From the NCBI GenBank assembly GCA_029260055.1, contig JAJDDX010000500.1, positions 119,467-183,466 of the forward strand: DNA of 64,000 bases, in the 5' to 3' direction. The position numbers and the translations under genes were made by a program. Below the pieces are notes generated by a model. That model ran no database searches, was not told the DNA's origin, and saw only the letters and a program-made list of their open reading frames with translations. How positions within the stretch are numbered: position 1 is the stretch's first letter; each line of letters starts with the position of its first letter. Positions 15,172 through 60,301 of the stretch are shown here, piece by piece. Source of the stretch: Phycisphaerae bacterium. GTDB taxonomy: Bacteria; Planctomycetota; Phycisphaerae; UBA1845.

Positions 15172-15897
15172 CTAGCTTGCCTCGCGTTCGCGATCATCCT
15201 CTCCGGACTTGGGCTCCCCGACGCCTTCCGACCCCATACGCTGGAGCCTTTCGACGATGCTGATGACGCGACGTCGCGAGTCGGGCCTGCTGAGCACCCG
15301 GGCCGTCTCCTGCGAGTAGCCCTTCAGGTCTCGGATGTCCTTGGTCTTGGTCCCGAGCCCCGCCTTCTCCTTGGCGGTGATGCGCTTCATGAGGATGTCG
15401 GCCGCGACCGCCAGCTCATGCCCAGCCTTGTCACTGAATGCCCCAACACTGTGTTCGAGGGTGACGAGCCGATCGATACGGTCCCGCTGGGTAAGGTAGA
15501 GGGCCTCCAGCTCGATAACCTCCTCGATGCCACCCTTGGTCCGCTTGTATGCCCCCCGGGCAAGCACCGACGGTTTGGCCGGCCCGTCGTCGTCATCATA
15601 GTCCACGACGCGCCCGGTCTCGAACCAGTCCTCCTCGACCCCTTCGCCATCATGACCCTCATACTCGTGGACGTCCGGGTCGAACCTCAGATCGTTGAGG
15701 AGCCTCGTCTTCTGCTTGGCCAGTGCGTTGGTCAGCGCCTTGTGGGTCACGTCTTCCATGGAGGTCTGATCCTCCTGGATGAAGTGAGCCACTTGCGAAG
15801 CAGGGACCCCCTCCTTGAGCATCGTGTTGACGGTCTTCACGAAGGCAAGGTTCGCGATTCGCTGCGAGATCGTTGGTTTTCCGGCTCCTCGGGACAT
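15172..15897 (-). CDS. Hypothetical, terminase-adjacent (possible packaging accessory/small subunit)
   Basis: Start MSRGAGKPTISQR at 15897; directly upstream of the terminase. Confidence 0.4.
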   Translation of the reverse strand: MSRGAGKPTISQRIANLAFVKTVNTMLKEGVPASQVAHFIQEDQTSMEDVTHKALTNALAKQKTRLLNDLRFDPDVHEYEGHDGEGVEEDWFETGRVVDYDDDDGPAKPSVLARGAYKRTKGGIEEVIELEALYLTQRDRIDRLVTLEHSVGAFSDKAGHELAVAADILMKRITAKEKAGLGTKTKDIRDLKGYSQETARVLSRPDSRRRVISIVERLQRMGSEGVGEPKSGEDDREREAS

Positions 15898-15948
15898 ATT
15901 CTCCACCTTGGGCGAGTCAAAGTGACCCGTCAAGAAAGCATAGCCGAG

Positions 15949-15964
15949 GTGCAGACGACTGCAC
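15949..15964. promoter_or_regulatory. GTGCAGACGACTGCAC element (dispersed family, copy 2)
   Basis: Same half-sites as copy 1, in the gap between ORFs ending 15977 and starting 15897. Confidence 0.55.
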
Positions 15965-15976
15965 AGGCCCATGACA

Positions 15977-16219
15977 CTACGTGGATACGAGGACCTCAAG
16001 TCGGCCAGCGATGGCAGCCAACTCGGCCTTCATCTGTTCCATTGGAACGCCCCGGATCTGAATGACGCTCAGCCCCTCCGGAATGCCGCCCGGAAAAGCC
16101 TCGACCTCGTTGCCTTCGGGGTCGATGACCGTCGGCTTGTCGAGCAAGGTAATCCACGACGAGAGGTGGTTCCGTAGGGTCTTCAGTTCCTCCAGGGCGA
16201 ACTCACGCGAAACCTGCAT
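15977..16219 (-). CDS. Small hypothetical protein
   Basis: 80-aa ORF between flanking minus-strand genes. Confidence 0.45.
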   Translation of the reverse strand: MQVSREFALEELKTLRNHLSSWITLLDKPTVIDPEGNEVEAFPGGIPEGLSVIQIRGVPMEQMKAELAAIAGRLEVLVST

Positions 16220-17278
16220 CTACCCTTCCTCGTCCTCAGCAGAGAAGTCGTCGACCGTTTCCTGGCCGAAGACGACATCGTTGGTCTCTTCGTCGAGGGC
16301 CACAATCTTGACCCCCAGGGAACGCTCCACGGACCGTAACATCTCGAACCGGAAGTTGGCCCGGTGCTTGACCTTCGACTCCCTCACGGAGCCGTTGTAG
16401 CTCGCGATGAACGAGGTACTGATGTGGTCGAGCAGCATCCCGCCCGCGTCTCGATTCTTCTCCTTATTCTGCCTCGATTCCCCATCGTCGATGAGGTCGT
16501 TCGCGAGACTCATCGCCAGCTCAACGTTCCCCTTCTGGTCGTCGGAAACCTTCACGGTGAAATTGTGCCGGCGGAGCCTCGGCTCATCGTCGGAGACCGG
16601 GTCGGCACCCTGGCGCTCGTCGTCGAGCGGTCGGTGGACGACGGTGCCGGGAGGCGGGTCCGCGTCCCTCTCGCCCTCGGTGTAGAGGGCGTTGCCTTTG
16701 CGGGCCTCCGCGTCCGCGTGGCGCTCGGCGGCCTCGTTGTCCTCGTTGGTCTGGGTGACACGCCCAGTGGCCCGCTCCTTCTTCCGGTCGGCCTTCGCTT
16801 TCTTCGCGAGCCGCGCCTCGTCCTCCAACTTCTTCACTGGCATAACGGCGGCCTTCTCGACCCAAACATCGACGTTCTTAGCGTCGACCACCTCAACGAG
16901 CGCCGCCGCCTTCGACCAGCCCAGCTCTCGGACCTTGTCGAAGACCTGCTTGTTGCCCAGCTCCAGGGCGAAGTAGCGGTAGATGCGCATGAGGTACATC
17001 GCCTTGCGCCAGGCAAACGTGACCTCCCCGTCCACGTAGTCCCCGAAGCTGTCGTAGCCCCAGAGCTGATACAGCGCTTCCTTCTGGACGTGATAGAGAT
17101 GTCGTCCCAACTCGAAGTAGCTAGAGGCCACCGCATCACGCAGTTCGATGATGCGTTTGCGGACAAGATCTGCTTGGACCTCCCTGTCCCCCAAAACCTC
17201 CGGCTCGACGTATGCGCTCCCACTGACCGAGGCCAGGTTGCTCACATTGACTTCGGCTTCACCTTCGACTTTTGCCAT
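16220..17278 (-). CDS. Hypothetical DNA-binding-like protein
   Basis: 352-aa ORF with helical YFELGRHLYHVQKEALYQLWGYDSFGDYVDGEV region. Confidence 0.5.
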   Translation of the reverse strand: MAKVEGEAEVNVSNLASVSGSAYVEPEVLGDREVQADLVRKRIIELRDAVASSYFELGRHLYHVQKEALYQLWGYDSFGDYVDGEVTFAWRKAMYLMRIYRYFALELGNKQVFDKVRELGWSKAAALVEVVDAKNVDVWVEKAAVMPVKKLEDEARLAKKAKADRKKERATGRVTQTNEDNEAAERHADAEARKGNALYTEGERDADPPPGTVVHRPLDDERQGADPVSDDEPRLRRHNFTVKVSDDQKGNVELAMSLANDLIDDGESRQNKEKNRDAGGMLLDHISTSFIASYNGSVRESKVKHRANFRFEMLRSVERSLGVKIVALDEETNDVVFGQETVDDFSAEDEEG

Positions 17279-17787
17279 AGCTCCTGAATCTCCTTCTCCT
17301 TCGCCACTACCCAGTCGAACGTGTATCTCGCGACCACGGCCGCGTCCGCTTCATGGTCATTGGCGACGTCTATTTCGAGCCCCTCTCGGACGGCCTCTGT
17401 GATGACCTCCTTCGAGAGTCGGCCACCATACCCGAGTACGTGTTTTCGCGCAGCCCCCGGTGCAACTACTTCCGCAACCAGCTTGCAGGCCAGGTAAAGC
17501 TGGGTCTTCAACGCCCCGGCCACCTCCCCGATCTGGTGGGCCTGCCACTTGGCGTCGTGGGCGAACCCCTCGATCCCCACGTGCATGACCTTGAAGTCTT
17601 TGATGACCTGGATGATCTCGTTGCAGATGCCGAGGAGCCGCTGGACAATCTCGGCCTGGGCGATCGGAGGGTCGCCCTTCTTCCGTCCGGAGAAGACGTA
17701 GTCGATGGTCATCGTCCGCATCACCACCCCCGTCTTTGTGAGAACGCACAGTCCCGTGTGCTGAAGCGAGAGGTCAATCCCCAGCAC
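17242..17787 (-). CDS. RuvC-like Holliday junction resolvase
   Basis: VLGIDLSLQHTGLCVL, HVGIEGFAHD, NDHEADAAVVA acidic motifs; likely GTG start at 17787. Confidence 0.75.
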   Translation of the reverse strand: MLGIDLSLQHTGLCVLTKTGVVMRTMTIDYVFSGRKKGDPPIAQAEIVQRLLGICNEIIQVIKDFKVMHVGIEGFAHDAKWQAHQIGEVAGALKTQLYLACKLVAEVVAPGAARKHVLGYGGRLSKEVITEAVREGLEIDVANDHEADAAVVARYTFDWVVAKEKEIQELWQKSKVKPKSM

Positions 17788-18676
17788 GGGACCGGAACAC
17801 CTCCAGTTCAATGCACTTGCAGTCGCCAAACGGGATTTTGCCGCCATATGGACAAGCCGGGATGGGTCGAAGGGGGTTTTTGAGCGCTTCACGGAGGCCA
17901 CGGATCTTCTCTTTCTCTTCGTGCATGAGCTGCGGATCGAAGGTGATGATGTGCTCTACCATCGCGTCCTCGAACTTCAGTGCGCCCGGGTCGAGATAGA
18001 TGAGTCGACCTCTCCGGATGTCGTAGGCGTCCATGTACCAATGAAGCTGCTTCACATCGTGCGGACGTGGCTCTCGGCGGACCCACTTGAGACTCTTCGT
18101 CGTCTTCAGGTCGAAAAACTCCAGGGAGTGGCCCGGCAGCATGAGGATGCCATCGACCGGCCCCCACACCTTCAGCTCGTAGTTCCTGGTCCATGGCTCA
18201 ACGTACTGGAAGGGGTCGAACTTGTTCGACTTATGGTCGCACGCCTTGCACACCTCAGGCATCGGGATCGCCGTCTCCGGCGTGACCAGGACGAACCCCC
18301 CGTGGTTCTCCTCCTTGGTTAGCTCTCGGGAGACGTGGAGCTTCGCGCACCGAGGGCACCGCCAGCCCCCATACATCCACCCGAGGGGACCGAGCCACAG
18401 CTCTTGGAAGATGCGGTGGATCGAGGTACCGCGGTCCATCCTCCACCGGGCCTCGATGTCGTACTCGTCGATGAGGTTGGTAATCCCCATGCGGTACGCC
18501 ATCACATGGAAGCGCGGGCAGTGGAGCGGAACCTTCGACGCGCCGAGCCAGTCGTCGGGACCGGGCATCTTCTTGTTCGGGTTGTAGACCGCCAGGTGCT
18601 CCGCGAGGATCCCGTGTAGGTAGTTGTGACCCTTGCGGATCTGGTCAATCTCTTCGATGACATCGCCGAAGCCCAT
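17774..18676 (-). CDS. PD-(D/E)XK nuclease (Cas4/RecB-like) with Cys clusters
   Basis: GPVDGILMLPGHSLEFFDLKTTKSLKW nuclease motif; CPRC...CKAC and C-terminal CPYGG..DCKC. Confidence 0.65.
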   Translation of the reverse strand: MGFGDVIEEIDQIRKGHNYLHGILAEHLAVYNPNKKMPGPDDWLGASKVPLHCPRFHVMAYRMGITNLIDEYDIEARWRMDRGTSIHRIFQELWLGPLGWMYGGWRCPRCAKLHVSRELTKEENHGGFVLVTPETAIPMPEVCKACDHKSNKFDPFQYVEPWTRNYELKVWGPVDGILMLPGHSLEFFDLKTTKSLKWVRREPRPHDVKQLHWYMDAYDIRRGRLIYLDPGALKFEDAMVEHIITFDPQLMHEEKEKIRGLREALKNPLRPIPACPYGGKIPFGDCKCIELEVFRSRAGD

Positions 18677-38687: not shown

Positions 38688-39557
38688 CTAGAAACTGCCG
38701 GTCTGGATGACGTGTGAGTTCGCCTGGTCGCCCAGTTTCACGGCTGCGAGAGCGTCCTCGATGGACATGTACTGCTCAGCCTTGCCGAAGCGTCCGCCCT
38801 TTTGCTTCCGCACGGAGACGGAGGTGCCCATCTTGTTCTTGGCCAGCTCGTAGGTGTGGCCGGCCACGTTCACATGGACCCAACCGCCTACCTTGAGGGC
38901 CTTGCGGACGTCCTGGGAGCCCTGGGACACCTCGACGAGATCGGATTCAACCGCAAGGGCCTCTTCGAGTTGGTCGGCGTAACTGGTCATCACATCTCCT
39001 TGGGAACGCTGGGAGACAATATCACGCGCCCCCGGACGCGCGTAGTATCGAGCCTTCTTGTAGCACGCCTCGCACAGACCCTTGGCGTAGTGCTTTTTCC
39101 TGGTCCCCTCACAGTCATCGCAACACGCCGGACGTCCGGAGACCCCCCACTCGGTCGCAGGATGCTGGATGATGGACGCCCCGTCGGGGTAGGTCCTCAA
39201 GAACTCCCGAATCGCATCAGCAGCCTCGTCATTGAGTCCGGTGCGGCGTCCCTTCTTCGGGCGCTTCGCACGCGGCAGCGGACTGGGGCTCTTCGCGATG
39301 TTGATCTTGAGCTTCCGCGCCGCGTTGACGACCCGGTCCCGATGAAACCCTGTCTCCTCGGCAAGCTCGCCGATGGTGATGAGCCCTCGATGACTCGGTC
39401 CCAGGTCGAGGCGCTTGGCCCGCCAGATGACGGAGTTGACGGACCGACCTAGACGCTCGGCAATCGTGTCGGCATTGAAGACGCCCCAGTCGAAAGCCAA
39501 CCGGCTGTCGTCACCCTCCGTCCAGGGCAACCGGTGCTTCATCGGCCCATCAGCCAC
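38688..39557 (-). CDS. SANT/Myb-like DNA-binding protein in frame with a second small protein
   Basis: PWTEGDDSRLAFDWGVFNADTIAERLGRSVNSVIWRAKRLDL; CDDCEGT...GLCEACY; strong RBS (aaggagatgtgATG) at the internal start 38990. Confidence 0.5.
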   Translation of the reverse strand: MADGPMKHRLPWTEGDDSRLAFDWGVFNADTIAERLGRSVNSVIWRAKRLDLGPSHRGLITIGELAEETGFHRDRVVNAARKLKINIAKSPSPLPRAKRPKKGRRTGLNDEAADAIREFLRTYPDGASIIQHPATEWGVSGRPACCDDCEGTRKKHYAKGLCEACYKKARYYARPGARDIVSQRSQGDVMTSYADQLEEALAVESDLVEVSQGSQDVRKALKVGGWVHVNVAGHTYELAKNKMGTSVSVRKQKGGRFGKAEQYMSIEDALAAVKLGDQANSHVIQTGSF

Positions 39558-39576: not shown

Positions 39577-42500
39577 TCAGCTCCAGACCGAGTGCTGGTA
39601 CTCGTAGCCGATCTTCTTCTTCTTCAGCCACTCGGTGAACTTGTCGAAGGAGATGCCTTTGAGGATCGACTCGTTGGCTTTGAGCATCTTGAAGAGCTTA
39701 CGCGCCGCACCGGGGCTCTTCGAGACGAGCTTGGTGTAGCTGGGATCGTGGCCGCCCCGCATGTCAGAACCAGGCGAATAGGCGCTGAACTTCGTCCACT
39801 CGGCGTGGACGACGAAGTCCTTGGCGTCGATGTCGAGCGGGTCAACATCCTCGGGCTCGACCTGGAGGTAAAAGACCATCTCCTCACGAGGATGGAACCA
39901 GGTCTTCTTGTCGAGGCCGGCCTCCTTCACGGCGGCCTCCATGGCGCTCGAGAGTTTGCTCTTCACCTTGTCGTAGACATCGCCACCCGCGATCTTTGCG
40001 ACCCGGAGAATGTTCTGGGCGATGAACGCTGCGTGGCGGTTGCTGAAGCCCGGATTCTGGAGGGTCAGCTTCCTGAGCTTCTTCTTGCCCTTCACGGGCA
40101 GCTCTTCGAGCACGAAGTGGTAGCCCGACCACTGGAGGCGGTACGCCTTGCCGACGATCTTGCCGTCCCAGCGCGGACCCTCTTCAAGAGGCTCCGGTCC
40201 CTGCGTCCTCCGGTGGGCATCGTCGCGGGAGCGCTCCATGACCGTCTTGGCCAGGTGCATGGACCCGCCGACCATCTCCATGAGGGCGTCCTTGGACGGC
40301 ACGTCGCGCTCCTCAGGTCGCTGGCGACTGCTCTCGATGACGAGCTGGTTGAGGTTGGTCGGGCCAACGCTCTCAACCAGGAGACCGACGCGGCCGAAGG
40401 CGGATGCCTCGACGCTACTGGAGCCGGCGCTCTTGAGGCGCTTGGCGAGCATGAGGGCGCGGAGCATCCCCGTCTCATCCTTCGAGCGGCCCGTGCGGCC
40501 CTTCATCTCGCGGATGGTCGCGTCGATGCGATCGACCGGGATGTCATCACCGTTGTTGACGCCGAGGAAGCGACTGACCCGGTTGGGGTCCTTGACCGCA
40601 TCGGCGATCGACCTCTTCTCGCTCAGCGACAGACGGTCGAGGTCCTCGAAGCTCTCGGTCTTGGCGCCACGGGAGAGGTGCTTGACCACCCGGTCGAGCA
40701 TCATCTTGCACAGCGCGTCGAGCCCAGTCTTCGAGCCCACCGACACGATCTGTCCGCCCCAATCCCGCGGAAGGTTGACCGTCCCCTGGAAGTAGTTGTC
40801 GTCTGGCTGCCGGATGACGAACTGGGCCTGTAGCTTCTCGTTCTTGGCAGTCACGATACCGATCGTGGCCGACATGCCCCACTGGGAACGCTTGCTCGGC
40901 CCGAACTTGTCCGTGTCGAGGATCCGGAGCTTCGCCTTCGGCGTGATCGCGCCGAGACCCTTCATGAGCTTCTTGCCGACCGCCGGTGGCGTCGGGTTCC
41001 CGCCAGCCTCCTCGAAGAAAGGGTCCGTGGACTGATCCACATCCTCGGAGAACTTCGCGAGCGTCGCGAGATCATGTTTCTCGATGGCCTTCGCGGCGGC
41101 CACAGGGGTCTTGAAGGTGCCAGAGAGGCCCTGGAGCTTGCCGTTGCCAACCACCCAACCCTGCTTCTCGTAGCCAGCGGGCAGGTTCCCCGCGACGCGC
41201 TTGGCCGCCGGGTTGATGCCGTAGCTGCCGTAGCGGTAGCTCATCGAGCCACCTCTCATCTTTCCGTCGAGCGACGACTTGTACTTCCTACCAACACCAC
41301 CGCCCGAGACCGCGTACCCCGAGTAGCTCTCGGCCTCGCCCAGATCCGAGCCCTCAGACTCCGCGTACTTGGCCCGCTTCGCACGAGGGTCGTCCGAGTC
41401 GGTCTCGAAGTACCGCTTGAAAATCTGGAGCGCCATCATCTCACCGCTCACGCGGGTCACGAAGATGAGATAGAGGAGCCCGGCGTTGCTCGGGACCTTA
41501 CGCACGTACTTCGCGAGCTTCGGTGAGACCTTCTGGAGGTTCTGCATCCACTTGTTGAAGGCCGGCCGCGGCTTGCCCGCGATGAAGTCCTGGGTGTCGT
41601 TGAGATGCGGGTCGTCCTTGACCCCCCACGCCAGGCCCAACTTGTCCCTGGGGATGGCGGTGATGGCCGCTCGGACCTTCGGGAAGAGCATCTCCTCGGG
41701 ACCCTTGCCCGCCTCGTCCTTCCACATCTTCAGGACCTTGGAGGAGACCTTGAAGCCGCCGGGTTTGGTGGGCTTGTCCTCACCGCCGAACGCAAGGCCA
41801 GGGGCACCGCGCTGAGCTTCGTCGAGACGGCCAGCAGCGAGGAAGTCTGAGAGGTTCGAGTGTTCCATATATCCCCGTTGTGACGCCTTCCAGGCGGCTG
41901 ACTTTTGACGCTTGATCCGAGCGCTTGCGGGCTCGGGAGAGGCGTTGGGTTGTCTCAACGCCGGCCGGTCGCCGTGCGACTTTTTGAGGGTCTTCGCGAT
42001 GTCGCTCTCGAACTTGTTCTGGATGCTCATGTACTCCAGGTACGGGAGCGACCAGGCGCCGTTGTTGAAGCGGAAGCCGACTCGTTTGAGCAGCTCCTTG
42101 ATCGGGTAGGTGTTGCCCTCGAAGACGATGTCCGCGTCGTGGATGGTGCGGTTGCCCTTCCACAGGATGCGCACCTTCACGTCGTAACGGTCGAGGCGTG
42201 CCTTGCGCCGGATGCCGCTCTCGACCTCCTTGATCTTCTTCTTCGTCGTGGAAGGGAGCGGGGTCTTCATCTCGTCGCTCGGGTAGCCGACGGTCGCGAA
42301 GTGGTCCTGGTTCTTGCGTAGGATCCCGTCGTTGTGCCGCTGCACCAGGTCGTTGACCTTCTCGATGGTCGCGCGGACCTTGGCCTCGGGCACATTGCCG
42401 CGGTGGCTCCGGTGGTCATCCCGGATGTGAATCATGGACCAGCCCTTGTTCCGCTGGTCGAACTTGAGCCCGAGCTTCTTCAGCTCGTCCTTGATGGGGA

Positions 42501-43491
42501 AGGACCCGCCGGAGACGTGAACCCCATACTCACCAGGCAGGGGGTATCCACCGCTCGAACCACCACGGAAATCCCCGAAGGCCGTGTTCGAAACCCTGAC
42601 CTGGACGCGCTGCTCCAGCCGCTCAGCGAGGTAGCGCTCCTTCTCGTCGGGAGTCTTCCCCCAGCTCGCGAGAGCGTGGGTTGCCTCCTCGAAGAGGGTG
42701 TCCGTGGGCGGCTCCACGCCCTCGTGCGCGCGACGCGCTGACGCCTTCACGATGAAGTCGCCGATGGCCTTGCCGAGCTTCTTTGGGTCGGACGAGGTGA
42801 TGGTCCTGGAGACCTTCCGGTTCTTCGAGGAGACCTGCGCAGCGAGCTTGTCGCCGCCGCTGAGGACGTTGCTGATGTCGATCTCGAAGCGGTTCCAACC
42901 GGTCCGCTCCTGCCCCACGTGAACCGAGAGGATGTGCCGCTGCGGGGTCGTGATGTCGGCCTTCGAGCCCCCCGCCTCGATCGCACGAGCGACCTCGCGC
43001 GAGAACGGGCTAGCGACCTTCAGTTCCTCGGCGGACCAGTTCATGGCCTCGCCCAGCTCGACCGACTCGTGCTTGAGACCCCCTTCGACGCGGTCCACGA
43101 TGGCCCTACCGATCTTCTGGTTGCCGCCAGCCTTCTTCCCCAGCTCGACGAGCGTGCCGAGATCGGTGAACCTACTGTCCTTGCTGCCCTGAACCTTCAT
43201 GGCGGCCTCGTAGCCACTCCTGGACCTGAAGATCTGGATGGTCGCGCTTTGGTCGCCAACTTTGAAGGTGACCTGGACCTTGCTCGCGCCCACCCCAAAG
43301 GCAGTCCCAGATGTCCTGCCATCCTTCTTGATCTGGACCGCGACCGTGTTCCCAACCTTCTCCAGGTCGGCGTCGTTGCCTTCGTTCACCAGCTCGAAGT
43401 ACGCGGCCCATTCGGCACCAAACGTAAGGTCGGAAGCCCCACGGTGAGCTTCGTCAACGCGGCTCTCACTCAAAAACGATCGGATGTCCAT
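39577..43491 (-). CDS. Giant (~1300 aa) putative capsid-targeted internal protein/polyprotein
   Basis: Starts MDIRSFLSESRVDEAHRGASDLTFGAE; second related leader MEHSNLSDFLAAGRLDEAQRGAPGLAFGGE in frame at 41868. Confidence 0.6.
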   Translation of the reverse strand: MDIRSFLSESRVDEAHRGASDLTFGAEWAAYFELVNEGNDADLEKVGNTVAVQIKKDGRTSGTAFGVGASKVQVTFKVGDQSATIQIFRSRSGYEAAMKVQGSKDSRFTDLGTLVELGKKAGGNQKIGRAIVDRVEGGLKHESVELGEAMNWSAEELKVASPFSREVARAIEAGGSKADITTPQRHILSVHVGQERTGWNRFEIDISNVLSGGDKLAAQVSSKNRKVSRTITSSDPKKLGKAIGDFIVKASARRAHEGVEPPTDTLFEEATHALASWGKTPDEKERYLAERLEQRVQVRVSNTAFGDFRGGSSGGYPLPGEYGVHVSGGSFPIKDELKKLGLKFDQRNKGWSMIHIRDDHRSHRGNVPEAKVRATIEKVNDLVQRHNDGILRKNQDHFATVGYPSDEMKTPLPSTTKKKIKEVESGIRRKARLDRYDVKVRILWKGNRTIHDADIVFEGNTYPIKELLKRVGFRFNNGAWSLPYLEYMSIQNKFESDIAKTLKKSHGDRPALRQPNASPEPASARIKRQKSAAWKASQRGYMEHSNLSDFLAAGRLDEAQRGAPGLAFGGEDKPTKPGGFKVSSKVLKMWKDEAGKGPEEMLFPKVRAAITAIPRDKLGLAWGVKDDPHLNDTQDFIAGKPRPAFNKWMQNLQKVSPKLAKYVRKVPSNAGLLYLIFVTRVSGEMMALQIFKRYFETDSDDPRAKRAKYAESEGSDLGEAESYSGYAVSGGGVGRKYKSSLDGKMRGGSMSYRYGSYGINPAAKRVAGNLPAGYEKQGWVVGNGKLQGLSGTFKTPVAAAKAIEKHDLATLAKFSEDVDQSTDPFFEEAGGNPTPPAVGKKLMKGLGAITPKAKLRILDTDKFGPSKRSQWGMSATIGIVTAKNEKLQAQFVIRQPDDNYFQGTVNLPRDWGGQIVSVGSKTGLDALCKMMLDRVVKHLSRGAKTESFEDLDRLSLSEKRSIADAVKDPNRVSRFLGVNNGDDIPVDRIDATIREMKGRTGRSKDETGMLRALMLAKRLKSAGSSSVEASAFGRVGLLVESVGPTNLNQLVIESSRQRPEERDVPSKDALMEMVGGSMHLAKTVMERSRDDAHRRTQGPEPLEEGPRWDGKIVGKAYRLQWSGYHFVLEELPVKGKKKLRKLTLQNPGFSNRHAAFIAQNILRVAKIAGGDVYDKVKSKLSSAMEAAVKEAGLDKKTWFHPREEMVFYLQVEPEDVDPLDIDAKDFVVHAEWTKFSAYSPGSDMRGGHDPSYTKLVSKSPGAARKLFKMLKANESILKGISFDKFTEWLKKKKIGYEYQHSVWS

Positions 43492-43493
43492 GG

Positions 43494-44015
43494 TCACTCC
43501 TGCTTGGCGACGATCACGACGCCCGGAAGAGCGGCGATGCTGGCCTGGTCGGCGATATCGGCCGCGATCTGGATGGCCGTGACGGTCTCCAGGACCGTGG
43601 CCTTGTCGAGGTTCTTCCAGTTGTCGGTCGAGCTGAACCGGTACTGGAGAGAGATGTCCGCGTCCGCCACCAGGGCGTTGACGCTCGTGCCGGCGTTGCC
43701 GAAGAACGCGCCGATGGCCGTCTTCACGCCCGAGATGGTCACCGGGACCGAGAAGGTCATCAGACTCCACTCGACGCGGTTGGTACCGAGGACGCCTACC
43801 GCCAGCTCGATCGACTTGTTGGCGTGGTCGATGCTGACGGAGCCGGCACTGCTGTCGACGTTGTCGAAGTTGAACAGTAGTTCGACGTCACGCGCCAGAT
43901 CATCGATTCGGGCGAGCATCGCGGCCCGCGTCGCCGACGACAGGGCCGTGTCCTTGGTGACGCTCTCGCGAAGGAGCGACTGGAATATCGCGAAAGTCGT
44001 CGTCGTCGTAGCCAT
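43494..44015 (-). CDS. Putative virion protein
   Basis: 173-aa ORF upstream of the giant protein. Confidence 0.5.
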   Translation of the reverse strand: MATTTTTFAIFQSLLRESVTKDTALSSATRAAMLARIDDLARDVELLFNFDNVDSSAGSVSIDHANKSIELAVGVLGTNRVEWSLMTFSVPVTISGVKTAIGAFFGNAGTSVNALVADADISLQYRFSSTDNWKNLDKATVLETVTAIQIAADIADQASIAALPGVVIVAKQE

Positions 44016-44175
44016 CTGGCACTCCTCCGGGAAATATGCGGCGAGTGTACGTGTACGCCTGCTCCCGGTCTACTTCCAGAAGCCGCTCACGCGCGCCACA
44101 GGCTACCACGAAGGATTCCAACACACACAGAACACTGGCCTACAATGTAGGCAACGGTAGGCAAACCGGCGGCTG

Positions 44176-45114: not shown

Positions 45115-45149
45115 TACCCCATTCTTATGGGGTAACAATCAAGAGTCAA
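45115..45149 (-). promoter_or_regulatory. Promoter with 8-bp-arm operator-like palindrome
   Basis: TACCCCAT-TCTT-ATGGGGTA (45115-45134) overlapping the minus strand TTGACT-16-TAAGAAT -10. Confidence 0.6.
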
Positions 45150-48100
45150 CCACGTCCACATGGAGGCCCCTGTTTTTGAGGAAGTGCTCGGCGAGCTTTT
45201 TGATGTGGTTGGGGTCTGTTTGGAGGTTCTCGACGAGCGATGCGTCCGGGTTCTTGATACCGGTGATCTGCTGGCGCTTCAGGCCGAGGATATCGGCGAT
45301 GACCGGATCGGATCCGTCCTCGGCGATGAGGAAGTAGGCGACACTCCCCTCGGTCTGGCCGTCGCGGTGGTAGCGCCCGATGCAGTTGCCCACGACCACC
45401 ACCTTGCCCCCTCGCCTCACGACAAGGGTTCCCACATCGTTGGTCACGCACCAGACGCGCTGAGGCTCCCACGGATCGGCCTTGATCCGGTTCGGTTTGG
45501 ATGGTCCAGGAAGCGACGCCTCTTCTGCGTCGGACAGCCAGATGTCGTAAATCGGATTTCCGACCCTGGTTCGTCCCTTTCGCTTTGAAATATTCGCAGC
45601 CATTCCGCGACGCACACAGATCGATTGAAGCCGATCGAGCATGTTTTTGTTGACGCTAGTGATCCTTTTCACGTTTTTGAGACGAGTCGACTTGCTGCCA
45701 TCTCCCATCCAAAGACCGTGAAGAAAATGTTCCAGTTGCTCCCGAGTCATGTCCTCCATGAGTGGGCTCATATCCTTGTCTAGATACGGTTCCAGGTGAT
45801 CCCAGCCACGACCGATGCGCTGGCACAGCGTGCCCTCATCCACACCTTGCGTTCTCCTGTATCGCTTTCCGACAGCCACAGGACTACGATCGACACTCCT
45901 TGCCACCTCACCGTAAGAGGCCCCATCAGCAACCATTTCCATCATTTGACCGACTTCACTGATCGACCACCGACGTGAACCACGTCCGCTCGGCACGTAG
46001 TAGATGTTCATCCCACTGGGTCGCGTACACATGCCCCAGTCGATCCGGCACCCATTCAACGTCTCCCTCAGGTCTGCGTTCCACCGCTGATGGTCGGCTT
46101 GATAGAACTGAAGCTGCCTACCGTTGAAGCTCCCGTCAGACACGAACCACCCAATCAGTCGAAGTTCGTAGTCTGTGAGACATACACCCCGAATATCCCC
46201 CTCTCTTCCTGAGACGGGAACGTACCTCCTCGACGCCCCATCCAAAGACGAAGCGTCGACCATTTCCCATGCCGATCGCGTAACACCACTCGCGGTACGC
46301 CTCCCGCACCGAACAACCATACGGTGTCCACCCGTCACACACAGGTCGATCTTCTCGGTCTTGGTGACGAACATTCGCTCATCAGCAGCAAGGGGCCTGT
46401 CGATCTTTTTTACGACTGGTCGCCACACAATCCGTCCATCGACAAACGCGGCAACCTCGTGCCCCAGATGGACCTCATCCACGCCCCTAAACCCGTCTCT
46501 AGTTAGTACCTCCGTGTCTTCCGATAGGCACTGCTCGTGGACTCCCGGCGACCAGTCCAACTCGCCGAAGACCCCCACGTTGCAGCACTCCTGGAGCCCG
46601 TCGAGACCTGCCCCCGACCGGAGGCTCATGATCAGCACCCGGGCGTCCCCGGCGACGAACGCCTCGCGGGCACGGTCCTTCTGTTTGACGCTCTCCTGCC
46701 CCGTGAAGAGGACCGGGTTGTACTCCTTGAGCGCGGCCTTCCAGACGTCGTAGACGGCGTGGTGCCAGCCGTAGAGGATGACCTGTTGCTCGCTCTCAAT
46801 GAGCATCTTCACGAAGTTGGCCACGTGAGGGGCCTTCCCGAGCCCAGTGGCCTGCCTCAGTTTCCAGTCCAGTTCGCGAGCGGCTTGGCCCTTGGCCGTG
46901 AACGCCTCTCCCTGACTGAGGATGATGCGGGCCAGCTCGGCGGCAGCGTCCTTCACCTCGTCGAGGATCTTGGGGTCTGAATCCACGTGGTACGGGATGC
47001 GGGTGAGCGGCGGCAGTTCGCGGCCGACCTCGCGACGGGTGCGCCGGATCATCAGCCCTGACTCGCGGACGAAATGGCCGAACGCCTTGGGGTTCGTGAT
47101 GCGGGCCTTGTCCTCAGAGTAGGAGTAGGAGCACCACTCGCGCTGAAACTCGGCCTTCGACCCGAGCGAGTCCGGCTGGAGGATATCGAGGATGTTCCAC
47201 ATCTCCCCGCCATAGTTGTAGATGGGGGTCGCGCTGAGCCCGATGCGGTAGTTGGTCGACCGCGAGATGTGCTCGGCCGCGAGGCTCTTCGCCGTCCTGT
47301 CCCCGTAGGTACCCCGCCGCCGTAGCTCCTGGCACTCGTCGAAGACGACCGACTCAATCTTCGACGCGAGGACCTCGGCCCACTTCGAAAGCTTGTGGTA
47401 GTTCACAATGATCACGTCAGGGAAGGGCGGTTCGGACTCCATCCAATCAGTCCACGCTTTCTGCTTCGACACGTCGGAACCCTTGTCGACCCGACCAGCG
47501 AAGGCGCAGTGGTGGCACCCCACGCCCACACACGAGGGGCACTTGGCGGTGCCCACCTTGGGGCGCTTGTTGGACTTCTTGATCGTGTCGGCGCGCATCT
47601 TCGCGGCGATGTCGTAGGGCTTGATCTTCTCGATGATGTGCCACCGCAGCTCGGGCGCGAACTTCGTTAGCTCACGTCCCCACTGGGTCTGGAGGTGGGT
47701 CATCGTCACGACGAGGGCCGGCCGGGTTCCGGGCTCGACCATGGTGCAGATGGCCGTGGCGCTCTTTCCGAGCCCAAGATCGTCTGCCACGAGGAGCCCG
47801 CGCGACATGAGGGCCAACTCGGCGCCAACCTTCTGATACTTCCGTGGCGGAAGAGCGAGTTTGAACTTCCGCGGCTTCAGGGTGCCGCTGAGGACCTGGT
47901 GGAAATCCAAGGCTCGCTTGTCGAAGGTCGCCGACGCCTTCGCCATGTAGGCCCGGTGCTCCTCGGTCATCTCCATCGGGAACCGTCCAAGGAACCAGTT
48001 CAGCTCCCGGCAGTTCTCCTCCGAGTTGACCAGGGTGGTCTTGCCGAGGTGACGATCGTTCACCTTTGCGAACGTCCGCTTCAGGCGGAGCATCGCATGG

Positions 48101-48207
48101 GGCTCGCACTCGATAAGCCACACCCCTCCCGGTCCGGCCGCCTTGGGTGGGTGCTTCATCCCGTTCGCCTCCACGGTGCAGAGGGTGACCTTGCCGACGT
48201 TTCTCAC
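45139..48207 (-). CDS. SNF2-like SF2 helicase, intein-containing precursor
   Basis: LLVADDLGLGKSATAICTM, VVFDECQELR, IGLSATPIYN, VLIMSLRSGAGLDGLQ, CIGRYHRDGQT. Confidence 0.88.
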   Translation of the reverse strand: MRNVGKVTLCTVEANGMKHPPKAAGPGGVWLIECEPHAMLRLKRTFAKVNDRHLGKTTLVNSEENCRELNWFLGRFPMEMTEEHRAYMAKASATFDKRALDFHQVLSGTLKPRKFKLALPPRKYQKVGAELALMSRGLLVADDLGLGKSATAICTMVEPGTRPALVVTMTHLQTQWGRELTKFAPELRWHIIEKIKPYDIAAKMRADTIKKSNKRPKVGTAKCPSCVGVGCHHCAFAGRVDKGSDVSKQKAWTDWMESEPPFPDVIIVNYHKLSKWAEVLASKIESVVFDECQELRRRGTYGDRTAKSLAAEHISRSTNYRIGLSATPIYNYGGEMWNILDILQPDSLGSKAEFQREWCSYSYSEDKARITNPKAFGHFVRESGLMIRRTRREVGRELPPLTRIPYHVDSDPKILDEVKDAAAELARIILSQGEAFTAKGQAARELDWKLRQATGLGKAPHVANFVKMLIESEQQVILYGWHHAVYDVWKAALKEYNPVLFTGQESVKQKDRAREAFVAGDARVLIMSLRSGAGLDGLQECCNVGVFGELDWSPGVHEQCLSEDTEVLTRDGFRGVDEVHLGHEVAAFVDGRIVWRPVVKKIDRPLAADERMFVTKTEKIDLCVTGGHRMVVRCGRRTASGVTRSAWEMVDASSLDGASRRYVPVSGREGDIRGVCLTDYELRLIGWFVSDGSFNGRQLQFYQADHQRWNADLRETLNGCRIDWGMCTRPSGMNIYYVPSGRGSRRWSISEVGQMMEMVADGASYGEVARSVDRSPVAVGKRYRRTQGVDEGTLCQRIGRGWDHLEPYLDKDMSPLMEDMTREQLEHFLHGLWMGDGSKSTRLKNVKRITSVNKNMLDRLQSICVRRGMAANISKRKGRTRVGNPIYDIWLSDAEEASLPGPSKPNRIKADPWEPQRVWCVTNDVGTLVVRRGGKVVVVGNCIGRYHRDGQTEGSVAYFLIAEDGSDPVIADILGLKRQQITGIKNPDASLVENLQTDPNHIKKLAEHFLKNRGLHVDVVDS
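45385..46530 (-). mobile_element. Intein in motif VI of the SNF2-like helicase, LAGLIDADG-type
   Basis: HEQ/CLSEDTEVLTRDGF...VTGGHRMVV...LIGWFVSDGSFNG...FLHGLWMGDGSKS...VVVVGN/CIGRYHRDGQ; 382 aa. Confidence 0.92.
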
Positions 48208-50530: not shown

Positions 50531-53485
50531 CTAGTGGCTGGTGAGCGAGAACTCAGCCGGTGGCGGGACCACACCCGGAATCGGAGAGTGCCCGACCTCG
50601 TCGAGGTAGTCGCTCGGCGGGAGCTGGACAACCCGATTCCCGACCGCGACGTTGATCGCGTAGCTGTAGTGCAGCTCGTCCTTGGCGCGGGTCGAAGCCA
50701 CGTAGAAGAGGCGACGCTCCTCCTCGGGGTCCTCGGCGCGGCCGTGGGGGAGGATGCCGTGGGCGCAGCCGATGACGATGACCACGGGCCACTCCAGGCC
50801 CTTGCTGCGGTGGATGGAGCAGAGGGTGACCTTGTTCGGATCCTTTTTGCCGCGCTTCTCGCGACTGGCCCTGATGGTGCGGTCGACATAGTCGAGCAGC
50901 TCGCGGACGGTGGGGAAGCGACCCGCGGCGCGGACCATCTCACGAACGTTCGAGACGCGGGAGTTCTCGGTCGACTCCTCGCCCTCGTCGCGGATGAGCC
51001 ACTGGGTGTAGCGGGTCTGGGTGACGATGGAGTCGAGGATGCGGGCCGGAAAAGCCGCGTCACGTGCCTCTGCGCTCGCTCCCTCGGCGGCACCGGCCTG
51101 GATCTCAGCACGGAGGTTCTCGATCATCGAAGCCCAGTCCTCGGCGGCGTAACGCTGGCGGCGCTGGATGCCGGCGCGCTCGTTGGCCTCCTTGACGACG
51201 GCAAGCCAGGAGAAGCGAGTCCCCTCGCTCTTGGCCCTACGGGCGTGCATCTTGGCGACCTCGCGGACCTTCTCTACGTAGCGCTTGCCGAGGAAGCGGA
51301 AGGGACTGTTGATGCACTTCTCCATGGAGTCGAGCCAGTCAACGAACTTGCCGTGGCCCGAGGCAACGCGGAGGTACCCGAGGAGGTTCTTGACCTCGCG
51401 GCGCTCGTAGAAGCTCGTGCCGCCGAGAATACGGTAGGGGATGCGGTGGCCGATGAGGCCCTCTTCGGGAGCGCGGGACTGGGCGTTCGTGCGGTAGAGG
51501 ATAGCGATGTCACGAGGCTCGACGCCGGCATTAGCCACGAGGGTGGCGATGCGGTGAGCGACCGACTCGCCCTCGTCTTCGAGGTTCATGAACTCGGTCG
51601 AGGTCACGGTGCCCTCTGTGTCCCGCTCGCAGATCATGTCGAGGTCGAGGCGGGTGGTCGGGTCCATCGCCGCGAGGGACCTGTTGGCGGCGTCGATGAT
51701 CTTCGAGCCACAGCGGTAGTTGCGGCCCATCTTGACCACGCTGGCCGACCAGTCCTTCTCGAAGCCGAGGAGCTTCTCGGGGCGGGCGCCGCGCCAGGTG
51801 TAAATGCAGTTCAGAACCACGATGCCATTGGCGGCGTAGGAATGATCCTTCTCCACGTCAAGGGAGTAGACCAGGCCCGAGTACATCCGTGATGGAACCG
51901 CATCAATGGGAGCCCACATGTTCCGGTCGTCTGGGAGCGGAACGCTCATCAGGCCCGGCAGGAGGTTGATAGCGTGGACCGGGAAGTAGGTGCCGCGCAC
52001 GTAGTCCGCATTAGGGTCGTCGGCTTCTGTTGCCGGGAAAGGCCAGAACGGAAAGTCGACGGATCGACTGTACTTGGCGAGCACCTGTGGTCCACGCGAC
52101 CATGTGTTCACCGACCCGAAAATCTCGGGGATAGCAGCGGTGTCGAGGTGGGTGTTGCTGACTGGCTCGAACGTCGCCGTGGGGATACCATGCTTGGCAG
52201 CCACGATGGACTCGTGGATACTCGCTTCCCTCCGGGTCTTGTGGGTCTTCAGAATCCAGACCTTGTCAGCTTTTTCCAGCTTCGCGCGCGTCACGAGGTG
52301 TAGGTTCCGGGACTTCCCTCTGGAGGCGAGGAGCTGGCACCACCCGACGCGGTATCCGAGGTCCTTACGGTACATGAGGTAGGTGACGCAGGTGTCGTGG
52401 TCGTCTCGATTGGTCCACCGACAGAGCACCTTGTGGTTGTCGGTCATCTCGGTCGAACGGTCGCAGACACGCATATCGAAGAGGCGACCGTCATAGACGC
52501 GGCTACCCAAGCTGGCACGGCGTCCTCCCACCATCTTCTGTGCTTTGCGATTCCACCCCTTGACGGTGATGAGCTTACCTTCCTGGTCTGCCCACAGGTC
52601 TTCAATCGAAACGTCACCATCATCGGTGGCGATCATCGTGCCAGGAGGGTGACACTGGGCGGGGTCGCCCACGAGGACGTAGTTGCGGTGGTCCTGCGCG
52701 AGGAGCGAGCCCATCATGAGCTGGGGGAGTGACTGGTCCTGGGCTTCGTCCTGGATGACCCAGTCCCAACGGGCGGCCCAGCGGAGGCGGATGTCTTCGT
52801 TGTCAACCATGGCCTCGACCGAGTCGATGAGCATGTCGGCGAAGGTGAGCAGGCGGCGCTCGCGGCGAATCTCCTCGGCACGCTCGTATGCCTCGTGAAG
52901 GAGGGCGGGGTTGTGCTTGGGGCCGGGGTACTTGGCGTAGATACCCTCGGCGATCTCGATGGCCTCATCCGAGTTCGGTCGCGCCATGTTCGACTTGCAG
53001 GTCTCGATGTAGGTCGCAAGGGCAGTTACGTCGGCCTTCTTCCAGTTCATGTGCTTGTAGCCGGTGACCTCCTTGAGAACGACGCGGAAACGGTCCTTGC
53101 TGTCGATGGTCCAGTCCCACTCGCTGCCGAAGCTGCCGAGGCACTCGCTCCTGTGGATCTCCAGGGCCACCGAGTGGAACGTGCCCACGCGGGCGTCGGT
53201 CTCGCCGATGAGGTTCTTGAGCCTCTCGTTCATTTCGTCGGCGCCCTTCTTCGAGAAGGTCACGGCGAGAATACGGCCGGGGTGGACGCCCTTGACCTTC
53301 ACGAGGCGCGCGATGCGGTGAACGACCACGCGGGTCTTGCCGGCGCCCGCGACGGCGACGAGAAGTTTGGGTCCCTCTTCATGGAGGACAGCTTCGCGCT
53401 GCTCGGGGTTCAGGCCAACGAGGAGCTTGTCCTCGTGCTTGATGTCGACCCCGCGGCTCACGTCAATAATGTCTCCGATGCCCAT
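50531..53485 (-). CDS. UvrD/PcrA-like SF1 helicase, intein-containing precursor
   Basis: LNPEQREAV, AVAGAGKTRV, VIQDEAQDQ, LVGDPAQ/CIYTWRGA, TLCSIHRSKGLEWPVVIVIG, EERRLFYVASTRA; start MGIGDIID at 53485. Confidence 0.9.
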   Translation of the reverse strand: MGIGDIIDVSRGVDIKHEDKLLVGLNPEQREAVLHEEGPKLLVAVAGAGKTRVVVHRIARLVKVKGVHPGRILAVTFSKKGADEMNERLKNLIGETDARVGTFHSVALEIHRSECLGSFGSEWDWTIDSKDRFRVVLKEVTGYKHMNWKKADVTALATYIETCKSNMARPNSDEAIEIAEGIYAKYPGPKHNPALLHEAYERAEEIRRERRLLTFADMLIDSVEAMVDNEDIRLRWAARWDWVIQDEAQDQSLPQLMMGSLLAQDHRNYVLVGDPAQCHPPGTMIATDDGDVSIEDLWADQEGKLITVKGWNRKAQKMVGGRRASLGSRVYDGRLFDMRVCDRSTEMTDNHKVLCRWTNRDDHDTCVTYLMYRKDLGYRVGWCQLLASRGKSRNLHLVTRAKLEKADKVWILKTHKTRREASIHESIVAAKHGIPTATFEPVSNTHLDTAAIPEIFGSVNTWSRGPQVLAKYSRSVDFPFWPFPATEADDPNADYVRGTYFPVHAINLLPGLMSVPLPDDRNMWAPIDAVPSRMYSGLVYSLDVEKDHSYAANGIVVLNCIYTWRGARPEKLLGFEKDWSASVVKMGRNYRCGSKIIDAANRSLAAMDPTTRLDLDMICERDTEGTVTSTEFMNLEDEGESVAHRIATLVANAGVEPRDIAILYRTNAQSRAPEEGLIGHRIPYRILGGTSFYERREVKNLLGYLRVASGHGKFVDWLDSMEKCINSPFRFLGKRYVEKVREVAKMHARRAKSEGTRFSWLAVVKEANERAGIQRRQRYAAEDWASMIENLRAEIQAGAAEGASAEARDAAFPARILDSIVTQTRYTQWLIRDEGEESTENSRVSNVREMVRAAGRFPTVRELLDYVDRTIRASREKRGKKDPNKVTLCSIHRSKGLEWPVVIVIGCAHGILPHGRAEDPEEERRLFYVASTRAKDELHYSYAINVAVGNRVVQLPPSDYLDEVGHSPIPGVVPPPAEFSLTSH
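51809..52654 (-). mobile_element. Intein in the UvrD-like helicase, possible degenerate GIY-YIG-like insert
   Basis: GDPAQ/CHPPGTMIATDDGDVSIEDL...MTDNHKVLCRW...TYLMYRKDLGYRVGWC...ASIHESIVAAKHGIP...GIVVLN/CIYTWRGA; 282 aa. Confidence 0.88.
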
Positions 53486-53571
53486 GTTCCGCTCTTTTCT
53501 GCCGGTTCTTGCCGGCGGTAGCGTCGGTCCTCGTGCCGACCTAACGATACTGAGGCTATAACGAGCGTTCG

Positions 53572-53841
53572 TCAAGAGCTTTTATTTGACCGCGCTTCAC
53601 CGCCGCTCCTCCGCTTCGGAAAGGCACGCCCCAGTAGGCGCCCTGCATACGTGGCAGCCACAGCGGCGGCAAGCCCCTGGAGCATCGACAGCGGCAACGA
53701 AGCGACCCCAAGTCCAATCGTGGCTGGCACGGTCCAGAACATGGAAACCAGGACCCCCAGCGAGAGCAGCAAGAGGATAATCCCCCCGATCGCCTGATAG
53801 GCCCGCCGGCCTGTTCGCCCTCGACCCCCCTCTACATCCAT
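53572..53841 (-). CDS. Small membrane protein
   Basis: Start MDVEGGRG; AIGGIILLLLSLGVLVSMFW hydrophobic segment plus a second. Confidence 0.5.
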   Translation of the reverse strand: MDVEGGRGRTGRRAYQAIGGIILLLLSLGVLVSMFWTVPATIGLGVASLPLSMLQGLAAAVAATYAGRLLGRAFPKRRSGGEARSNKSS

Positions 53842-56495: not shown

Positions 56496-56990
56496 CTAGA
56501 TACCCTTCCAGCCTCGCCCACTAAGGTACGCACGTATCTCGTCAGGCTTCATATTGGTGTCCCTAGACATCCGGTCGATGGAATTGGTGACCACTCGCGA
56601 TCGGTCAGGCCCCTTCGAGCCGGCTGCGATCTTGAGCTGCTTGTAGAAGCGGCTGCCCGTGATCCTCTTGAGGGTCTTCATATCCGACGCCTTCGCGTGA
56701 TCCCGCTGAGCCTCCTGAGCCTTCTTCCACATGAACGCCTGCGACTTGCTCGACTCTCCGCGTCCCTTGAGGATCGCCGCGCACCTTGTGCCGACGTAGA
56801 TCTCACCGCTCTCGTCGGCGTGATCTCGACTCTGCATGACCACGCACTTCTTGAGGTTGCTCTTCCCGCACCTCTCGCACTGGTCGTGGTCACCGGACGT
56901 CCCGATGATGTCCCAGGCCCCAGCCATCCCGCCCTTGGCCCGCGCCTCGGTCAGTCCGCGGCTCTCGGCCAAGTATTCTTGAAGGTCCAT
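56496..56990 (-). CDS. CTS-type cargo candidate, Cys-rich protein
   Basis: Starts MDLQEYLAESRGLTEARAKGG; CERCGKSNLKKCVV zinc-like motif. Confidence 0.6.
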   Translation of the reverse strand: MDLQEYLAESRGLTEARAKGGMAGAWDIIGTSGDHDQCERCGKSNLKKCVVMQSRDHADESGEIYVGTRCAAILKGRGESSKSQAFMWKKAQEAQRDHAKASDMKTLKRITGSRFYKQLKIAAGSKGPDRSRVVTNSIDRMSRDTNMKPDEIRAYLSGRGWKGI

Positions 56991-56992
56991 GG

Positions 56993-57559
56993 CTACAGTC
57001 TTGCCCCTTTCCGGAACGCACCACCCACACCGGTCTTCATAGCAGATTTGAGGTCCCTGACCGTGATGCCCTGGTCCTTGAAGAGCCGCTGGTAGAGCGC
57101 GGTGGCGATTCCCGTGCGCCTGAACTCTGGCTCCACCTCCACGAACAGGATGTCGTACTCCTTCTGCCACTGGCGCCACGAAAGCACCCCCACGCGCTCG
57201 CCTGACGGGAGGTAGGCGTGAATCCACCCCTCCCACTGATCCCCCATCGAGTCCCCACCGGTCTTGATCTTGAGCCCACGGATCTCCACCGTGCCCTGGG
57301 GAGTGCTTTTGGTGAGCCGCCGCATGATCTGGCCCTGAAACCGTGTGCCTCCGTCGCCGGTCCAGAAGACCGTTCGCCCACGCCACACAGCGAGCTGTTG
57401 CCCACCCATACCGCTCTGGTGGAGCTTCTTCCCGTCGGTGCTCAGGATGCCACCGGAGTCATCGAGAGGCAGTTGGTCCGCAAAGGCGTCGACGACCTGG
57501 AGGGTGCTCTTACGCAACCTTGATTCGGCCAGGTATTCGCGGAGATCCATGGTGGGCAT
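56993..57559 (-). CDS. CTS-type cargo candidate, GNAT-like acetyltransferase
   Basis: MPTMDLREYLAESRLRKS; ILFVEVEPEFRRTGIATALYQRLFKDQG acetyl-CoA-binding motif. Confidence 0.65.
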   Translation of the reverse strand: MPTMDLREYLAESRLRKSTLQVVDAFADQLPLDDSGGILSTDGKKLHQSGMGGQQLAVWRGRTVFWTGDGGTRFQGQIMRRLTKSTPQGTVEIRGLKIKTGGDSMGDQWEGWIHAYLPSGERVGVLSWRQWQKEYDILFVEVEPEFRRTGIATALYQRLFKDQGITVRDLKSAMKTGVGGAFRKGARL

Positions 57560-59041: not shown

Positions 59042-60301
59042 ATGGATCTACAGCACTTCCTCGCCGAGCAACGGCTGACCGAGGGAAGCTCGTTCGACGA
59101 GGCGTGGGTCAAGGGCATCCGGAAGTGGTGGAAGACCTGGTCGTCCCGAGGGAAGAGGTTCGAGGGCCGCTACACGACCGTGGGCGGCCTGGGACACAGG
59201 TCCGGGCTCGAACACCTGGACGCCGCCGGGGCCGCGGCCAAGGCGTACCTGACCGAGGGGCACGAGATGGTCGAGCGCCTGAAGACCGACCTCCTGGTCA
59301 ACAAGGGCTTCTGGCACGTGCCGGACAAGAAGGCCGACAAGGGGATGCTCGCCCGCGAGTGGAAGACGAAGACCGTCCAGGAGATCGACGAGGCGAGAAA
59401 ACTCCTCGTCGCCGGGGTACGCGCCGTCGAGTTCTGGTCCGCGGGTGGCTATGACGCCGGCCCTCACATGTCCCGAGAACAGACCGAACTGAAGCTCCGT
59501 GACATCGAGAAGGTCAACAGGATGATCTCGACGATCAACGCGGCCGTCGACGAGGTTGTCGAGCGCGTCGACAAGATCATCTCGGGTCGTCTCCTCCGAC
59601 ACCTGACGAAGCTGGCCAAGATGGGCGGGTGGCAGGACAACAAAGTCGACCTTGGGGGGCACGAGCCCGAGGCGGTGACCCTGGGGAAGGCCCAGCTCAT
59701 CTTCATGGGCACCCCGAAGGGAAAGGCGACGGCGAGCGCCCGTCACCCGCGAATGAGGAAGCGGTACATCGCGTTCGCGCAGGACGTTCGGAATACCCTC
59801 CGGAAGCACAACCTCGGCTACCTCTGGTATGGGAAGTTTTTCACGAAGGCGAAGGGGGACGCGCCCGAGAACCACCTGGGGGTCCACTTCGGGGTCGGGG
59901 CCACCTACTCCCGCAAGGGCGACTACATCACCGTCTACGCGGACCCGAAAAGGAGCATGGCGTTCATGCTCATCCACGAGCTGGGGCACCGCTACTACTA
60001 CAAGTTCATGAACGCCACGGACCGGCACAACTTCGACCGCTGGTTCGGGAAGACGAAGCCCACGAGCAACTACGGTGCAACGATCTCCTCGGAGGACTTC
60101 GCCGAGGTCTTCGCTAGCTACGTGACCGGCAGAAACATCTCGCGCGACCAGGCCGCGCGACTCAAGGAGTTCTTCGGTCGCACCAAGCGCCTGGAGAGCC
60201 TCTCCGTGCCTGATAGGATAGCGACCATGGAACTCCAGTGTTTCCTCACCGAGAGCCGCCGGCGGCGTGGTAGAACCCTCGTCCGCTCATACCCAACCTG
60301 A
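59042..60301 (+). CDS. CTS-type cargo candidate, HExxH zinc metallopeptidase
   Basis: MDLQHFLAEQRLTEGSSF start; MAFMLIHELGHRYYYKFMN; downstream SSEDFAEVFASYV; in-frame C-terminal MELQCFLTESRRRRGR. Confidence 0.65.
   Translation: MDLQHFLAEQRLTEGSSFDEAWVKGIRKWWKTWSSRGKRFEGRYTTVGGLGHRSGLEHLDAAGAAAKAYLTEGHEMVERLKTDLLVNKGFWHVPDKKADKGMLAREWKTKTVQEIDEARKLLVAGVRAVEFWSAGGYDAGPHMSREQTELKLRDIEKVNRMISTINAAVDEVVERVDKIISGRLLRHLTKLAKMGGWQDNKVDLGGHEPEAVTLGKAQLIFMGTPKGKATASARHPRMRKRYIAFAQDVRNTLRKHNLGYLWYGKFFTKAKGDAPENHLGVHFGVGATYSRKGDYITVYADPKRSMAFMLIHELGHRYYYKFMNATDRHNFDRWFGKTKPTSNYGATISSEDFAEVFASYVTGRNISRDQAARLKEFFGRTKRLESLSVPDRIATMELQCFLTESRRRRGRTLVRSYPT

Follow-up and report, generated by a model that had tools for sequence, protein, structure and literature searches.

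A single open frame encoding 1304 amino acids (about 144 kDa, pI 9.6) occupies positions 39577–43491 on the minus strand of the window, as we call the whole 64,000-nucleotide stretch of DNA analysed here. The frame starts with an ATG at 43491 and is open through to the stop ending at 39577; the mechanical ORF reaches further upstream, to a GTG at 43770 within the preceding gene. Codon usage favours this coding frame in every 180-nt segment, with a single dip at residues 501–560, just ahead of an internal leader. A preliminary description of this DNA had reported one open frame with two leaders and no stop between them, as well as further protease-like sites, and both observations were reproduced. 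The N-terminal leader, MDIRSFLSE/SRVDE/A (43450–43491; slashes mark candidate cleavage points, here after residues 9 and 14), resembles a capsid targeting sequence. The internal leader, MEHSNLSDFLAAGRLDE (residues 542–558, 41818–41868), begins at a candidate ATG start at 41868 and contains the candidate site RLDE/A. The other sites are DTLFEE/A, PFFEE/AGG and GLLVE/SVG, cut points falling after residues 269, 828 and 1040, respectively.

Modules of the chain and the genome that carries it

The chain can be divided into modules, all encoded on the minus strand. Modules A1 (residues 15–148, 43048–43449, ending HESVELGE/AMNW) and A2 (residues 149–269, 42685–43047, ending DTLFEE/A) have putative boundaries drawn at candidate sites. 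Module B (residues 299–511, 41959–42597) consists of two tandem copies of a small alpha-beta domain. Module C, a helical domain (residues 559–719, 41335–41817), has homologues in five distinct relatives, and module D (residues 829–947, 40651–41007) has one in G067, directly before the domain C of that relative. Module E (residues 959–1020, 40432–40617) weakly matches phrog_15706, whose function is unknown, and module F (residues 1105–1304, 39577–40179) follows the candidate site EPLEE/GPRW, at which its putative boundary was placed. A comparison of A1, A2, D and F gave no support for one repeated domain, and no relative of A1 was found. The modules are mostly basic domains, for which, by analogy with T4 IPI and with polyvalent proteins (PMC5512222), protection of the incoming DNA or host takeover are plausible roles.

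The chain could be assigned to no family with confidence in Pfam or PHROGs, and no Pfam family reached the cut-off in the window chain or in four homologous chains. Fusellovirus VP2, PlyG and phrog_15706 were rejected as identities, being below the cut-off or without a known function. There was no match to annotated phage records at E<=1; a relative of the whole protein was found neither by patterns in IMG/VR nor in 60 related genomes; for domain C, a set of 298 genomes from the class contained none. AlphaFold2 models of modules B and C were of modest confidence (mean pLDDT 65). Module C was predicted as a helical domain whose first 32 residues, which hold the junction, are disordered, and a fold search with this model gave no confident match. 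Module B was predicted as two similar alpha-beta units flanked by disordered ends; Foldseek returned nothing at E<=0.001, and the T4 MotA C-terminal domain, which came top of a second fold comparison, was discarded, as its Z of 5.2 lies in the chance range.

The window is the end (bases 119467–183466) of a contig of 183,466 bases, which was placed in a bacterial genome bin of 7.6 Mb. The contig ends share a perfect 141-base repeat, as a circular genome gives. Because a gp23-like capsid protein, a gp21-like protease, a portal and a tail sheath are among its proteins, the contig is, by gene content, the circular genome of an uncultured T4-type myophage distant from described ones; the best identities of its capsid protein to those of described phages are about 25–36%. 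The major capsid protein gene (3518–5017, minus strand), assigned by sequence match, has an E of about 2e-20 to T4 gp23. The prohead protease, the presumed processing enzyme (5108–6769, minus strand), combines a T4 gp21-like N-terminal domain (E 1e-11 to gp21) with a long C-terminal extension, and its GELDHP and GISSRG, which match GELNHP and GVSSRG in gp21, preserve the catalytic His and Ser motifs. Thus, a gp21-type protease and a gp23-type capsid protein occur in one genome. Capsid proteins at 66–87% identity are carried by 24 IMG/VR records, and no close relative was found in genome_contigs. The lineage set used below comprises ten genomes or fragments, including that of the window.

It should be noted that the capsid proteins of relatives have an (M/L)xE/A site at about residue 9, whereas that of the window reads MEARNMMGAANQG, without such a site. 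Several window genes carry insertions: the portal frame (9096–11801) holds an HNH endonuclease match in its N-terminal part, a SNF2-type helicase (45139–48207) contains a block whose ends are intein-like and which matches a LAGLIDADG homing endonuclease, and a UvrD-type helicase (50531–53575) is interrupted by a weak intein-splicing-domain match.

The leader as a lineage-wide tag

The internal leader had been called clearly the same as the N-terminal one. The two share 50% identity over 26 residues, but only the second site, RLDE/A, is conserved; the Glu of the first site is lost (FLAA/G vs FLSE/S). Beyond the tag, the modules behind the two leaders show no resemblance. The strict leader pattern [FY][LI]xExR occurs at 10 places in the 183-kb contig, 4 of them gene N-termini and 1 near a C-terminus. 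We then counted [LI]xE[AGSQ] at residues 7–10 (first motif residue at 7, Glu at 9) across the non-redundant gene predictions from the ten genomes (1297 genes). It was seen 40 times vs 5.4 expected (p=6e-22), the neighbouring start positions giving about 5 each; when residues 2–21 were shuffled, the count averaged 3.7 and never exceeded 10. Tagged proteins further show a preference for Leu or Ile as residue 3 and for Ala as residue 10.

In T4, the capsid targeting stretch directs proteins to the prohead core and is then removed by gp21, which cleaves after L/I-x-E (PMC9026906). T4 IPII and IPIII both begin MKTYQEFIAE/A, and IPII continues ARV, so that EFIAEARV nearly equals SFLSESRV of the window leader. 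In MDIRSFLSE/S, the window protein likewise has an N-terminal tag with [LI]xE/[AGS] within about 10–20 residues. Judged from these sequences, the leader is shared by many proteins across the lineage as a general address tag and corresponds to the T4 capsid targeting sequence. As the tag is generic and the modules behind it are unlike each other, the two leaders are no evidence that two cargo genes are paralogous.

Three more tagged genes lie in the window: one with a GNAT acetyltransferase domain, starting MPTMDLREYLAE/S (56993–57559, minus strand); an adjoining gene of 164 aa, starting MDLQEYLAE/S (56496–56990, minus strand); and one for a HELGH metallopeptidase-like protein, starting MDLQHFLAE/Q (59042–60301, plus strand). 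The last also carries a leader-like MELQCFLTE/SRRRRGR at its C-terminal end (60227–60301), and its G078 homologue ends at LRE/A. A D5/HTH-like gene (38688–39557) runs on, with no break in the frame, into a tagged domain of 100 aa, MTSYADQLEE/A, which begins at the ATG at 38990 behind a strong internal ribosome site (-8.5 kcal/mol); in G061 the tail forms a gene of its own, and the head stands alone in G067, G075 and G077. A UvrD-like helicase in G066 (contig 141736–143817) starts MSIGNILSE/A and may be packaged in that phage. Applied to the uncultured relatives, the rule M-x-[LI]-x3-[LI]-x-E/A lists about 30–40 candidate injected proteins.

Module shuffling and the domain C junction

Upstream of the polyprotein gene lies a 173-aa gene of no known function (43494–44015, minus strand), with homologues in eight relatives. 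The next gene after it encodes a long chain containing domain C in G061, G067, G075 and G077; other genes follow it in G066, G065, G064 and G078, those in G078 having candidate sites near their N-termini. Domain C lies near the N-terminus of a long protein in G061, behind its own leader MSLQDFL...HLSE/A, and at the C-terminus of longer chains in G067, G075 and G077. In L105–L107, which are identical over the protein and were counted once among the five distinct homologues, it belongs to an open frame of 468 residues, with a capsid protein gene about 3 kb away. The order of modules also changes: module B stands after domain C in G061 and before it in the window, and module D before it in G067 and after it in the window. 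Several distinct domains in shuffled architectures, as expected of phage polyvalent proteins, are thus present.

Directly before domain C, [LV]xE/AQ was found in 6/6 distinct sequences (the window and five homologues), all at the same place: RLDE/AQ, HLSE/AQ, GLHE/AQ, SLDE/AQ, MVRE/AQ and DLRE/AQ. Since conservation covers P3, P1 and P1' but not P2 (D, S, H, D, R, R), this stretch looks like a T4-type protease site rather than a structural one. In the G067 homologue, SLDE/A occurs at three junctions.

Candidate sites are also numerous along the window protein. The motif [LI]xE[AGS] occurs 6 times vs 2.5 expected by composition, a modest excess (p=0.04), and [LIVMF]xE[AGS] 14 times vs 5.2, a count reached in 0/2000 shuffles. 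In five polyproteins, 28/28 strict [LI]xE[AGS] sites fall outside the homology-defined domains, where 8.2 would be expected inside (nominal P 6e-5, in a test picked after the sites were seen). The reversed motif, a weak control, also avoids the domains (2/12 inside), and the difference between forward and reversed is not significant (Fisher p=0.085); the forward motif occurs 28 times in the five chains vs 12 for the reversed. Moreover, the whole proteome has a general [LI]xE[AGS] excess, partly common to the reversed motif. Given that the site statistics are limited by this control and by the proteome-wide excess, protease-motif conservation at module boundaries is better illustrated by the domain C junction, which together with the positional peak of the tag constitutes the stronger evidence.

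Two further long chains, in G066 (contig 40624–44166) and G070 (contig 15650–18631), are rich in candidate sites (12 vs 2.8 expected) and include three ESLDE/A or ESLDE/G sites; they are likely further polyproteins.

A proposed polyprotein of the capsid interior and its alternatives

We consider it probable that the 1304-residue chain is cargo of the capsid interior, tagged to the prohead and cut between its modules by the phage protease. The N-terminal tag MDIRSFLSE would carry the chain into the prohead core, as does the T4 capsid targeting sequence for internal proteins. During head maturation, the gp21-like protease would strip the tag and cut between modules at [LIV]xE/[AGS], and the released, mostly basic domains would remain with the DNA in the head and enter the next host cell, where any anti-host function would be exerted. 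The internal leader at 41868 would be a tag copy left or placed at a module boundary, in which RLDE/A remains and the first site has been lost. The preliminary description had already suggested fused cargo or a polyprotein matured in the prohead; apart from its use of the leaders as evidence of paralogy, this suggestion is strengthened by the T4-type head genes, the lineage-wide leaders, the [LV]xE/A junction in 6/6 sequences and the module shuffling. Against it stand the limits of the site statistics given above; moreover, a 144-kDa chain carried by a single tag would be out of the ordinary for T4, the internal proteins of which are small.

The case for a broader reading, in which the lineage packages multi-domain polyproteins that are dismembered in the prohead at tag-like junctions, appears to us evenly balanced. 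The injected set could then be changed by shuffling modules within one gene, with one 9-residue tag and one protease. If true, polyproteins fill the capsid interior of this lineage and several proteins are delivered in fixed proportion, for which we found no description in tailed phages in the literature searched. The conserved domain C junction gives a precise cleavage prediction.

Of the alternatives, the best placed, if still doubtful, is that two genes share one frame, the second yielding a product of 763 aa from the ATG at 41868, with the longer product made in minor amounts or the junction a functionless fusion. In G061 the domain C module indeed begins a protein with its own leader, internal in-frame starts are used by T4 genes 17 and 21, the gene at 38688–39557 has a like arrangement with a strong internal ribosome site, and the codon score dips at residues 501–560. 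However, the ribosome site at 41868 is of intermediate strength: its pairing (-5.7 kcal/mol) is weaker than that of 78% of called ATG starts and is matched by 22% of internal ATGs. Moreover, domain C is internal in G067, G075 and G077 without a start codon at the junction, and module B in G061 likewise continues in frame with no stop. Internal initiation at 41868 is thus possible but weakly supported, and it is compatible with the polyprotein reading.

We find it rather unlikely that the protein loses only its N-terminal tag and is delivered whole, like the N4 virion RNA polymerase or other polyvalent proteins. Phage polyvalent proteins have up to 15 domains and the N4 enzyme is packaged unprocessed (PMC5512222), and the internal leader, its first site lost, may be a relic. 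Against whole delivery, the site before domain C is conserved though the P2 residue and the flanking architecture vary, and G067 has its three SLDE/A junctions. That the chain belongs to the prohead core or scaffold, and is broken down to peptides in maturation and expelled like T4 gp22, gp67 and gp68, is more improbable still. The many candidate sites would suit it, as gp21 cleaves T4 core proteins into many fragments (PMC9026906), but the chain has conserved modules that are predicted to fold, close relatives differ strongly in module content, unlike essential core genes, and in the window a long distance separates the gene from the head cluster. Finally, loss of a stop codon through a sequencing or assembly error, which the preliminary description had raised, is very improbable. 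In its favour, there is one assembly only and the codon score reaches its minimum immediately ahead of the junction. Against it, homologues from four further assemblies are likewise long open frames with several modules (560–1073 aa), homology stays in frame before and after the junction, and in neither alternative frame is there a stop close by whose absence a single-base error could explain.

Among known systems, T4 IPI–IPIII share with the putative polyprotein a short N-terminal tag ending [LI]xE/[AS], a T4-type protease and capsid in the genome, a basic character and a content that varies between relatives, T4 internal proteins being not conserved between relatives (PMC9026906). They differ in being single and small (96–194 residues), whereas the window tag heads a 1304-residue multi-module chain with leader-like copies inside it and is one residue shorter (E9 vs E10). 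Polyvalent proteins (Iyer et al. 2017) resemble it in having many domains per chain, quick shuffling of architecture and presumed delivery with DNA, and tagged neighbours in the window include GNAT and metallopeptidase-like proteins, classes both named by those authors. In contrast, metallopeptidase, ART, ParB, PBECR and other such domains were not recognised by Pfam in the window chain, and the processing between modules by a prohead protease proposed here differs from N4 virion RNA polymerase, which is uncut, and from P1 DdrB, which was believed to cut itself. Finally, the ejected head proteins of phiKZ and SPN3US have a short xxE motif, a prohead protease that cuts C-terminal to the Glu, and several sites per chain; in these phages cleavage strips propeptides from the N-terminus of a single mature protein, whereas in the window chain it would separate several domains.
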